A stretch of DNA of 64,000 nt from Catellatospora sp. IY07-71. Lineage in GTDB: Bacteria > Actinomycetota > Actinomycetes > Mycobacteriales > Micromonosporaceae. This document shows, piece by piece, positions 12,176 through 18,740 of this stretch. The stretch is from positions 2,781,501 to 2,845,500 of the forward strand of contig NZ_AP023360.1 of the NCBI RefSeq assembly GCF_018326265.1, written 5' to 3'. Every line of letters begins with the position of its first letter. Position 1 is the first letter of the stretch. A program made the position numbers and the translations under genes. A model generated the notes under the pieces. It saw only the letters and a program-made list of their open reading frames with translations. It made no database searches and was not told the DNA's origin.

Positions 12176-13597
12176 ATGACGATGCTCAGCGAGCCTGACG
12201 CATTGACCGGGCCTTCCGTCCACTGCGATCTGCCCGGGCCCCGTTCCGCCGAGCTGCTCGCGCGGCAGCAGCACCGCGAGTCGAACGCGCGTACCTACCC
12301 CCGCAACCTTCCCATCGCCATCGCGGAGGGCGCCGGCTCCTTCGTCCGCGACGTCGACGGCAACGTCTTCATCGACTTCCTGACCGGCGCGGGCGTGCTC
12401 TCGCTCGGCCACAACCATCCTGAGCTGGTACGCGCCGTGACGCAGCAGCTCGGCACACTCACTCACGCGCTGGACTTCCCGACCCCCGCCAAGGACGCGT
12501 TCACCGAGGCGCAGCTGTCCATGCTGACCCCGGGCCTGCGGGAACGGATGCGTGTGCACTTCTGCGGCCCCACCGGCGCCAACGCCGTGGAGGCCGCGAT
12601 CAAGCTGTGCAAGACGGCCACCGGCCGCGGCGACGTCATCTCGTTCCAGGGCGGCTACCACGGTTGCAGCCATGCCGCGATGGCCGCCTCCGGGCTGGTC
12701 TCGCAGAAGCGCCCGATCGCCAACGGGGTGCCCGGGGTGCACTTCTTCCCGTACTCGTACTGCGCCCGCTGCCCGCTGGGCCTGCGCCCGGACACCTGCG
12801 AGACCAACTGCGCCGGGCTGCTGGAGAAGTCGCTGCTGGACCCCAACGGCGGGCTCGCGCGGCCGGCCGCGGTGATCCTGGAGCTGGTGCAGGGTGAGGG
12901 CGGGGTCATCCCGGCCGCGCGCGACTTCGTCCGCCGGGTGCGGGCGCTGACCCGCTCGCTGGACATCCCGCTGATCGTGGACGAGGTGCAGACCGGCTGC
13001 GGCCGCACCGGCACCTGGTTCGCGTTCGAGCACTACGACATCGAGCCCGACGTGATCGTGGCGTCGAAGGCGCTGTCCGGCATCGGCACTCCCGTCGCGC
13101 TGATCATGTACGACCAGCGGCTCGACGCGTGGCAGCCCGGCGCGCACACCGGCACCTTCCGGGGCAACCAGCTCGCCTTCGCCGCGGGGGTGGAGGCGGT
13201 CCGGATCCTGCACCGCGACCAGGTGCTGGCCAACGTACGCGAGCGCGGGCAGCAGGTTGAGCAGCGCTTCGCCGCGCTGCGCGGCCACCCTGCCGTGCAC
13301 GAGGTGCGCGGGCTGGGCCTGATGTGGGGCGTCGAGCTGACCGACCCGGGCGACGGCCGCTCGGCGGGCCAGCTGGCCCGGCAGGTGCAGGCCCGGGCCC
13401 TGCGCCGCGGCCTGATCATCGAGCTGGGCGGCCGGGACGACTGCGTCATCCGGATCCTGCCGCCGCTCAACGTCACCGCCGCGGTGATCGACACCGCGTG
13501 CGGCATCGTGCTCGACGCGATCGAGGAGTCGTACGCGACCCCCGCCGGCGGCGCGGATCTGGCGCCCGCCGCCGCGGGAGGCGACGGCATGGGTTGA
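12176..13597 (+). CDS. Class III PLP aminotransferase, diaminobutyrate:2-oxoglutarate transaminase type
   Basis: 473 residues; ATG 12176 is preceded by TTGAGGAG. Class III motifs are present: [19 protein letters not shown] near the N-terminus, the PLP Asp in [14 protein letters not shown] (Asp269) and the Schiff-base Lys in [10 protein letters not shown] (Lys298), then [12 protein letters not shown] Cys-containing insert ([11 protein letters not shown]...CETNC) is typical of 2,4-diaminobutyrate transaminases in peptide clusters. The expected reaction converts L-aspartate 4-semialdehyde plus glutamate to L-2,4-diaminobutyrate. It is followed 127 bases later by the polymer-type synthetase and most likely supplies its monomer. 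Ornithine or another omega-amine product cannot be excluded from sequence alone. Confidence 0.87.
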
Positions 13598-13603
13598 TGC
13601 CGG

Positions 13604-16700: not shown

Positions 16701-18740
16701 TCACCGTTCTACATGCGCCTGTTCGGCGACAGCTCCTACATCGTCGGCTACCTGCGCTGGCTCGGCTACGACCTCGGCCGGGTGGTGCAGACCGGCTCCA
16801 ACTTCGGCAACGAGCTCAAGCAGGACTCGCCCTACCTGTGCAGCGTGGGCAGCGGGAGCATGGTGTCGGACGGCGTGTCGATCATCAACGCCGACTTCTC
16901 CAACACGTCGTTCCGGCTCTCCCGGGTGGCGATCGGCGCCTCGTCGTTCCTCGGCAACAACATCGCCTACCCGGCCGGTGCCACCGTCGGCGACGACTGC
17001 CTGTACGGCACGAAGGTCGCCGTGCCGACCGCCGGTGCCCCGGGCGCGGGGGTGGGCCTGCTCGGCTCACCGGCGTTCGAGATCCCCCGCACGGTCGGCC
17101 GGGAGGCGGGCTGCGAGCTGCCGACCGGTGCCGAGCTGGCGCGCAGGCTGGCCGCGAAGAACCGCTACAACCTCGGCACCATCGCACTGTTCCTGCTGTC
17201 GCAGTGGGCACATGCCGCCGGGCTGCTCCTCCTGCTGATCCTGGCGATCGACCTGTACGCCGACTGGGGTCTCGCACTTCTGATGCCGGTCGGCATCGTG
17301 GTGCTGACGGTGTACCACGTCGGCTACAGCGTCCTGGTGGAGCGCATGGTGGCCGGGTTCCGGCGGCTGCGCGCCCGCCGCTGCTCGATCTACGATCCGT
17401 ACTACTGGTGGCACGAGCGGCTGTGGAAGCTGGAGTCGCCCGTGGCGTTCGCCGGCACTCCGCTGCGCAGCATCGTGTGGCGGTTGCTCGGCGTACGCGT
17501 GGGGCGTCGGCTGTTCGACGACGGCTGCTACATACCCGAGAAGACCCTGGCTGTCATGGGTGACGACTGTACGCTCAACGCGGCGACGGTGATCCAGTGC
17601 CACTCCCAGGAGGACGGCGTGTTCCGCTCCGAGCCGAGCGTCCTCGGTTCGGGTGTCACCCTGGGCGTCGGCGCGTTCGTCCACTACGGCGTCACCATCG
17701 GCGACGGCGCCGTGCTCGGCGCCCACTCCTTTCTCATGAAGGGCGAGCAGATTCCCGACGGCGAAGTCTGGACCGGCAACCCGGCCCGGCCGCTGTACGC
17801 GCCGGTGCCCGCGCCCGCGCGCCGGCGCCGGCCGCTGCCGACCCCGGCCGGCCCACGTCCCGGCTCGCGCGCCGCGGCCCGTGCCCTGCTCACCGAGCTG
17901 CGGGCGGCGCCCTCGCCGCGCCGGCGCCGGCCCGCCGGGGTCGCCGTGTCGCTGTTCTCGCTGGCCGAGTGCCGGCGCCGGGAGGCCGAGCTGGCCCAGT
18001 TCCTCAGCGGCGACGAGCGGGCCGAGGCCGACAGCCTGCGCTCCACCGAACGGCGCAGCTCCTTCGTGATCTCCCGGGCGCTGGTCCGCATGATCCTGTC
18101 GATCGAGTGGCACGGCGAGGTCGCGCCGCGCAACTGGACGCTGCGCTACGGCGGCCAGGGCAAGCTCACCGTGTGCGGGCCGATCACCGGGCTCGACCTG
18201 AGCGTCTCGCACACCGACTCGGTCATCGCGGTCGCGGTGTCCGACGCGTACGACATCGGGGTGAACCTGGAGCCCGCGGCCGGGGGTGACGCGGCCGTGC
18301 TGCCCTGGGCGGCGCTGTCCGCGTCCGAGCACGCCCGCCTGGCCGGCAGCGACGACCAGGGCGAGCAGCTGCTGCGGATGTGGACGCTGAAGGAGGCGTT
18401 CGCCCGGTGCGCGGGCGAGGTCAGCTTCGAGCAGCTCGACGCGCGGCTCGACCCGCTCCAGGTGATCGGCGGCGGCGCGCCCGGCCGCCAGCGCTTCTGG
18501 TTCCACCAGGAGCAGTGGGGCGAGGAGGTCGAGCAGCACTGGGTGACCGTGGCCGTGCGGCGGCGGCCCGCCAGCCGGCGCGGACGCCGCTCCACCGGCC
18601 GCCCGCCCCGCCCCGCCGTGAGCAAGTCGGTGGGCCGCCCGGCCCGCCCGGCCGGGCCCGCCCACGCCGTACACATGCAGATCCTGGCCAACGGGCGGGT
18701 CACCGCCCGCGACGTGACCGCACCCGACACCCGCGGCTGA
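13725..18740 (+). CDS. Pls/PosA-type membrane NRPS (homopoly-amino-acid synthetase) with C-terminal phosphopantetheinyl transferase
   Basis: 1671 residues; ATG 13725 follows GGAGGGAG. Order of domains: adenylation (about 40-540; YTSGSTGRPKG near 198-208, YRTGDLG, terminal Lys in PSDKADRKSL); carrier protein with GADSL, Ser591; then six transmembrane helices in three pairs (about 660-722, 895-962, 1150-1209), each followed by a hexapeptide-repeat left-handed beta-helix block (about 763-868, 997-1103, 1249-1359). This layout is that of epsilon-poly-L-lysine synthetase, which joins one basic amino acid through its side-chain amine while bound to the membrane. Hand alignment gives pocket residues D246, F247 and E250; the acidic E fits a cationic substrate. 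Residues about 1408-1612 are an Sfp-like PPTase (LDLSVSHTDSV, WTLKEAF), an unusual fusion. Its usual GxD metal motif reads GVNLE (Asn1514). Confidence 0.9.
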   Translation: MSTRVLDVDDLPEFPDVEPGGSGLVLTCPGHGHEPRWQPGERLPQLFEQQCDRLRRYDRAEQLAVDTGEESLTYDELDARANQLARHLIRHGARPGDRIALLFDQAVQSYVGMLAIGKVHAAYVPLDTGFPADRLAYIVADSGSRLVLSLSHLRDHLAEVTGAEVLCLDEAGAELAATPEQRLAAEERGEPADELAYIIYTSGSTGRPKGVAVEHAAICNFVRVAAELYGVRPGDRMYQGLTIAFDFSIEEIWVSWMVGATLVPKPGGASLLGRDLWEFLTAREITAMCCVPTLLATLDEDLPDLRFLLVSGEACPQDLVTRWHRPGRRFLNVYGPTEATVTATWTPVHPDKPVTLGLPLPTYAAVILDPDESRALPPGEVGEIGIAGIGLAVGYVNRDDLTERAFIPDFLDIPNNPSGRIYRTGDLGRVNEIGEIEYLGRIDTQVKIRGYRIELTEIESVLLQVPGVAQAVVDVHRPEPGVTELVGYYSLRKDTVALDRPQIYAWLRDRLPGYMIPTYLEQLDVIPMLPSDKADRKSLPPPTNRRTAAQADAAEPATPVEQGYAEVLAEIVRVDRVGVESHFFEDVGADSLLMARFCARVRQRRDLPSVSIRDVYVYPTIRQLAGAVSQAAPQTADGVRPAERARPAHRATNQAYVTCGVLQMLLLMATACAGGAILVAGLMWISHAAGLWDMFQRAAAYAGVSLGLACTVPIALKWLLVGRWTERNIPVWSAGYLRFWYVRGVLQLNPLLLFRGTPLYPVYLRALGAKVGRNVVILSRTVPICTDLLRIGDGAVIRKDCSFTGYRAEAGLIQTGPVSIGSGSVVGEQTVLDIRTSIGDRARLGHSSSLLAGQSIPDGECWQGAPAQRSEADLPVVPAARCGLLRKVFYTGMKVVNVLLWLPVGGTVLVLLLTRVPPLARLVGPGPLAGVRLYGVVLLASLLLSVIGLVVGLLFIGTVPRLLHRLLLRPDRVYPLYGLRYWVAGTVGGMTNSPFYMRLFGDSSYIVGYLRWLGYDLGRVVQTGSNFGNELKQDSPYLCSVGSGSMVSDGVSIINADFSNTSFRLSRVAIGASSFLGNNIAYPAGATVGDDCLYGTKVAVPTAGAPGAGVGLLGSPAFEIPRTVGREAGCELPTGAELARRLAAKNRYNLGTIALFLLSQWAHAAGLLLLLILAIDLYADWGLALLMPVGIVVLTVYHVGYSVLVERMVAGFRRLRARRCSIYDPYYWWHERLWKLESPVAFAGTPLRSIVWRLLGVRVGRRLFDDGCYIPEKTLAVMGDDCTLNAATVIQCHSQEDGVFRSEPSVLGSGVTLGVGAFVHYGVTIGDGAVLGAHSFLMKGEQIPDGEVWTGNPARPLYAPVPAPARRRRPLPTPAGPRPGSRAAARALLTELRAAPSPRRRRPAGVAVSLFSLAECRRREAELAQFLSGDERAEADSLRSTERRSSFVISRALVRMILSIEWHGEVAPRNWTLRYGGQGKLTVCGPITGLDLSVSHTDSVIAVAVSDAYDIGVNLEPAAGGDAAVLPWAALSASEHARLAGSDDQGEQLLRMWTLKEAFARCAGEVSFEQLDARLDPLQVIGGGAPGRQRFWFHQEQWGEEVEQHWVTVAVRRRPASRRGRRSTGRPPRPAVSKSVGRPARPAGPAHAVHMQILANGRVTARDVTAPDTRG

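Follow-up and report, generated by a model that had tools for sequence, protein, structure and literature searches.

A putative poly-diaminobutyrate synthetase of Catellatospora with a probably non-catalytic phosphopantetheinyl transferase-like tail and an apparently exchanged polymerase module

The window analyzed here, 64,000 nucleotides of contig NZ_AP023360.1 of the soil actinomycete Catellatospora sp. IY07-71, harbors two adjoining genes on its forward strand. The first (12176-13597) encodes a transaminase of the 2,4-diaminobutyrate (DAB) type, the second (13725-18740) a synthetase of the Pls/PosA family that consists of an adenylation (A) domain, a carrier (T) domain, a membrane-bound polymerase and a tail resembling 4'-phosphopantetheinyl transferases (PPTases). 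We consider it fairly probable that this is a gamma-poly-DAB system with an Sfp-derived tail, fused once and kept but probably no longer competent, and with a polymerase module that was replaced by recombination. An earlier note on this DNA had proposed a DAB homopolymer system with a fused, self-activating PPTase; the homopolymer system is well supported and the fusion genuine, whereas self-activation appears unsupported for this protein. The product class and the enzyme family are known; the points added by the present sequences would be the architecture, the pseudo-PPTase and the module replacement.

The fused PPTase-like tail

The C-terminal domain (residues 1380-1620; 17862-18584, forward strand) has the PPTase fold. 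With the Pfam PPTase model (PF01648) the window copy reaches 23.5 of 25 bits and stays under the cut-off, while five other scanned copies lie above it; in a genome search with this model nine of the 11 fused copies pass. NCBIfam models of the HetI type also match the tail (E 1.3e-12 for the window), far under their equivalog cut-offs, and the tail of one sister species aligns to Sfp with an E-value of 0.0036 and with the motifs in order. A Foldseek search of the PDB with an AlphaFold model of the tail, which is weak (mean predicted local distance difference test score 54.7, nine sequences in the input), returned PPTases at ranks 1 to 6 and holo-acyl carrier protein synthases at the next nine. 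The domain derives from an Sfp-type PPTase, probably through a single fusion event in the common ancestor of the genus.

The fused gene is present in all 11 Catellatospora genomes and was confirmed in the other ten by domain profile. An assembly artefact, considered as a source of the fusion, is ruled out by the occurrence of both the fusion and the gene order in 11 of 11 genomes. Among the sequences searched the fusion was seen only in Catellatospora. Pls-type matches were found in 134 of 300 genomes of the family (11 of these Catellatospora) and in 25 of 396 genomes sampled from the phylum, among them that of the window. None of the eight frames of at least 1550 amino acids from outside the genus (seven from the family and one, L169 of G650, from the phylum sample) contains a PPTase domain. 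No fusion was found in the shorter non-genus frames retrieved (L035-L063 and others), which are a part of all such frames and of which L035-L063 are stretches of only about 5 kb; as the fused gene encodes about 1670 amino acids, a frame of this size could hardly accommodate the domain as well. Among plasmids, coverage of the query stays below 80% in every record, and the 20 matches listed out of 1669 records all stop at residue 1353. Viral contigs held no relative of the tail, and the flanks of the non-genus loci retrieved held no neighboring stand-alone PPTase as its possible source. In 61 family genomes the best matches outside the genus reach 28-35% identity.

The catalytic residues of the tail are unevenly preserved. 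According to the available text of PMC4103896, group II PPTases require the first and the third magnesium ligand but can dispense with the second, and in the alignment of 556 known members given there these two ligands are Asp and Glu, respectively. In an alignment of the 11 fused copies the first ligand is Asn in two, those of the window and of C. bangladeshensis, which come from separate assemblies. Two sister species (L065 and L066) have Ala at the third ligand and lack the essential Glu, and the second ligand is Gly in three copies (L064-L066). The triad of the window domain reads Asn-Glu-Glu; the P2 His is kept in five of the 11 copies, among them that of the window, and the position of Lys155 in Sfp numbering is occupied by Arg in all 11. 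By comparison, 15 of 15 stand-alone Sfp-type PPTases read in the genus keep all five catalytic residues. This control set comprises 20 PF01648 loci of the genus, five of which were set aside (AcpS-type or without a readable frame). The four PPTase loci read in genomes beyond the genus are likewise intact and canonical, and the window's own genome carries an intact stand-alone Sfp-type PPTase (L002). As judged from these residues, self-activation by the fused PPTase is improbable in the window species; the earlier proposal finds no support for this protein, given the Asn at a ligand reported as essential and the tails that decayed differently in sister species. Since the fused tail is probably no longer a competent PPTase, priming of the T domain would most likely fall to an intact PPTase encoded elsewhere in the genome, a task that the stand-alone L002 could perform.

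Several points weigh against such a loss. The mutants reported in the available text of PMC4103896 are Ala substitutions, among which Asp to Asn does not occur. The control loci were taken from the better-scoring of 59 matches, which favors intact copies, and 17 further matches lie outside the set. Within the fused copies, the first and third ligands are intact in seven of 11, the full triad in six and the triad together with the His in three, and the tail may be active in other Catellatospora species. The copy of C. methionotrophica (L090), for one, has its motif residues intact. Because the ligands are intact in most copies, the case for loss concerns the window species and two others and not the whole genus. 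There is a small but real chance that the fused domain of the window is itself an active PPTase which loads its own T domain, with Asn replacing Asp and Arg replacing Lys155: it has the fold, it is under purifying selection, and it retains the P2 His and two of the three ligands. This explanation has to accommodate the exchange of essential ligands in the window, L065 and L066, the Arg in every fused copy and the intact Sfp-type enzyme in the same genome.

The selection acting on the tail was assessed from the ratio of nonsynonymous to synonymous substitution rates (dN/dS), which is 0.10-0.29 in six close pairs. L088 and L092, both without the third ligand, differ by 21.0 nonsynonymous changes at 479 sites and 33.0 synonymous changes at 178 sites (Fisher p 5.8e-8), and the window and L084 of C. 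bangladeshensis, both with Asn, by 6.0 at 484 and 9.0 at 179 sites (p 0.007). Purifying selection seems to continue after ligand loss, because pairs that share a lost ligand still show it. Maintenance of the tail by selection suggests that a non-catalytic role has been retained, for instance in holding either the T domain or the enzyme once it is assembled. The T domain is the first guess, as it is the natural partner of a PPTase fold. Against a retained role it has to be considered that the numbers of changes behind the test for the pair of window and C. bangladeshensis are 6 and 9, that dN/dS of the tail rises to 0.45-0.54 in three distant pairs, and that between the two main branches its dN is 2.06-2.38 times that of the A domain; the higher values could mean relaxed constraint or a shift in role. 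This roughly doubled dN, together with the loss of different catalytic residues in different species, would also be expected of a dying remnant without a role, the conservation of which is left from a recently active state. We regard such a remnant as unlikely, given the purifying signal between L088 and L092, which share the lost third ligand, and the open frame that is intact in 11 of 11 copies.

Probable replacement of the polymerase module

Within the synthetase gene, the polymerase module lies in a stretch (15552-17859, forward strand) that is diverged from C. bangladeshensis (L084/L073), whereas the flanks are near-identical. Per 100 bases, identity is 92-100% in most of the flanks and at both gene ends, with exceptions at 11900 (84%), 19900 (69%) and 20000 (79%), and drops to 51-86% from about 15.6 to 17.9 kb. 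For the DNA of the gene this amounts to about 98% identity at both ends and about 70% across the polymerase. A change-point fit placed the edges at 15552 (15538-15581) and 17859 (17856-17864) with a log-likelihood gain of 416; within the gene, mismatches make up 30.1% inside the stretch versus 2.3% outside. The synonymous rate (dS) between the window and C. bangladeshensis is 0.070 for the A domain, 0.53-0.54 for the polymerase and 0.052 for the PPTase part, an 8- to 10-fold jump. As synonymous change rises too, fast evolution of the protein in place is disfavored. The trees are discordant in the same manner: in those of the A domain and the PPTase part the window pairs with L073 (support 100/99 and 91/87), whereas the tree of the polymerase groups L073 with six other species (100/100) and leaves the window outside this group (91/84). 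Three polymerase types, 54-62% alike, occur in the genus: the first is shared by seven species, the second by three, and the third is that of the window alone.

The difference between the window species and C. bangladeshensis would go back to homologous recombination that replaced the polymerase module and left the A-T front and the PPTase-like tail in place. The polymerase/A ratio of dS is 0.92-1.66 in ten within-clade pairs, 0.71-0.80 for C. bangladeshensis versus five type I species and 2.26-2.57 for the window. Both lineages deviate from the usual ratio, and the exchange could have run in either direction. It counts against a replacement that no donor of the window polymerase was found among 101 genomes and the retrieved loci, in which similarity is 57-62% within the genus and at most 51% outside it. 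A polymerase type that is present in one genome only, with no donor found, could instead be an assembly chimaera or the result of fast evolution in place without any recombination. This is very improbable. The window genome (G000) consists of one contig, and only one Pls-type match in it exceeds the cut-off, so that there was no second copy for the assembler to borrow; furthermore, the frame is intact and the family score strong, synonymous sites jump as well, and the tree sets the window polymerase within the clade of the genus.

Domain plan, predicted product and related systems

The synthetase comprises 1671 amino acids plus stop. Its likely start is the ATG at 13725, which is preceded by AGGGAG, while a GTG at 13662 is disfavored. 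Pfam matches to AMP-binding, AMP-binding_C and PP-binding correspond to the A domain (residues 1-545; 13725-15359) and the T domain (residues 566-628; 15420-15608; PP-binding E 3.3e-8); serine 591 of the T domain, in the motif GADSLLM, is invariant in nine of nine aligned copies. The membrane/beta-helix polymerization domain (residues 658-1354; 15696-17786) matches TIGR02353, the Pls/PosA terminal domain, over the whole profile (1-695) with 645.5 bits versus a cut-off of 423.1, which completes the Pls/PosA plan on one chain. Hydropathy analysis revealed hydrophobic stretches at residues 655-686, 698-722, 892-917, 926-968 and 1152-1205. These fit three membrane-helix pairs, the third of which is a single stretch (1152-1205) not split in two. 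Behind the PPTase-like domain follows a basic C-terminal tail (residues 1621-1671; 18585-18737) with RPAVxKSVGR-like and ILAxGxVxAR-like stretches among the conserved columns of 11 rows.

The partner gene is an open frame of 473 amino acids with a match to Aminotran_3 (E 1.2e-85). It encodes a class III transaminase of the DAB--2-oxoglutarate type with a Cys-rich insert, scores 434.3 bits with TIGR00709, the DAB transaminase family (cut-off 401.6), and stays under the cut-offs of narrower DAB-transaminase models (e.g. 517.1 of 671 for NF005393). It adjoins the synthetase in all 11 genomes of the genus. Three elements of the earlier note are supported in this way: the DAB-type class III transaminase by TIGR00709, the combination of A, carrier, membrane-helix pairs and C-terminal PPTase in one protein by Pfam, TIGR02353, hydropathy and Foldseek, and the cationic homopolymer synthetase fed by the transaminase by the family model, the pocket residues and the conserved gene pair.

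The pocket of the A domain, with positions assigned by GrsA numbering, reads DFECLSVVTK in all 11 genus copies and in four of six outgroup rows; the remaining two outgroup rows read DFECLSVVSK. In the available text of PMC10522769, Asp at pocket position 1 and Glu at position 3 are given as a rule for Pls/PosA synthetases, and Phe at position 2 is found in poly-DAB and poly-diaminopropionate synthetases. The window A domain has Asp, Phe and Glu at positions 1, 2 and 3 and fits this pattern. Considering the pocket code and the adjoining transaminase, DAB is the best guess for the monomer, and gamma-poly-DAB, a product class already known, would fit both. A cluster for gamma-poly-D-DAB contains genes for an aspartate kinase and a racemase in addition to the transaminase, as stated in the accessible part of PMC8225329. 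Neither an aspartate kinase nor a DAB racemase is among the identified flanking genes of the window, the rest of the genome not having been searched, and for this reason a polymer of L- rather than D-DAB is more likely. The pocket pattern would also admit 2,3-diaminopropionate. That this compound, or D-DAB, is the monomer seems distinctly improbable, as the paired gene belongs to the DAB-transaminase family and the annotated flanking genes include no racemase and no diaminopropionate-synthesis gene (elsewhere in the genome not searched). In the proposed pathway the transaminase would convert aspartate semialdehyde to L-2,4-diaminobutyrate, the A domain would activate diaminobutyrate and load it onto the T domain, and the membrane-bound beta-helix polymerase would link the units via their side-chain amines. 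Homology extends to every part of this system; substrate, product and linkage are predicted from the family.

Known synthetases and their gene contexts, with pldA, dat and ask, are described in the available text of PMC8117764. Together with PMC8225329, as far as both texts are available, it shows that PldA of Streptomyces celluloflavus (gamma-poly-L-DAB) and PddA of Streptoalloteichus hindustanus (gamma-poly-D-DAB) share with the window the plan of A domain, T domain and membrane polymerase as well as an adjacent DAB transaminase (dat/PddC); PMC8117764 gives the accessions WP_110952768 and WP_083959783 for PldA and PddA. As judged from these published descriptions, the window protein differs from both in its PPTase-like C-terminal domain. 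The clustered aspartate kinase of both systems and the DAB racemase of PddA are not among the identified flanking genes of the window (rest of the genome not searched). Other synthetases of the TIGR02353 family have the same domain order, with Ala or Met at pocket position 2 where the window has Phe (PMC10522769, available text), and lack the extra C-terminal domain. Sfp-type (group II) PPTases share fold and motif order with the window tail, which differs from them in being fused, in the Asn at the first magnesium ligand and in the Arg at the Lys155 position. Enediyne polyketide synthases with a PPTase domain are described as phosphopantetheinylating in the titles of papers on them. They resemble the window protein in having this domain within a carrier-bearing synthase, whereas the window tail lacks catalytic residues and is part of a Pls-type non-ribosomal peptide synthetase. 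No description of a PPTase fused to a Pls-type synthetase was found in the searches of open-licence PubMed Central literature, so that this architecture may be new to the literature; the words phosphopantetheinyl and PPTase are absent from the main text of PMC10522769, as far as available, and the name Catellatospora from the open-licence papers found on the subject.

Further Pls-type systems were observed in the genomes searched. Three loci of the window's class (L171, L172 and L173 of G427, G460 and G667) are split Pls-like systems with polymerase frames of 860, 919 and 946 amino acids. Their polymerases are 51% alike to that of the window and the A domain is a separate neighboring match (34-35%); at L171 a T domain precedes the polymerase, and cysteine-synthase-like and TauD-like genes were seen nearby by eye. 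One genus genome harbors a second, unfused Pls-type synthetase (L005, G002:C1:309787-311823) with a frame of 1277 amino acids.

The gene order of the window is MFS transporter, LppX-type lipoprotein, transaminase, synthetase, AlaX-like gene and DUF3099, and was recovered by tblastn in the ten other Catellatospora genomes (11 of 11 in all). The transporter and the adjoining LppX_LprAFG lipoprotein (9513-11868, reverse strand), syntenic in all 11 genomes, are reminiscent of the mycobacterial LprG-P55 pair. Directly 3' of the synthetase and on the same strand lies an alanyl-tRNA editing gene (18803-19537; AlaX-like, tRNA_SAD), again in 11 of 11 genomes, which is perhaps co-transcribed with it.

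Tentatively, the PPTase may have been acquired once and have turned into a pseudo-enzyme that caps the carrier domain in a structural or regulatory capacity, and the polymerase may serve as an exchange cassette, perhaps altering polymer length. With this exchange nature would have tried out positions at which a Pls enzyme tolerates cutting and joining, here codon 610, close to where the T domain ends, and codon 1379, just before the tail; such sites bear on the engineering of polymers with a desired length. The tail provides a test case for the PPTase fold after catalysis is lost, and a warning that a fused PPTase need not mean self-activation.

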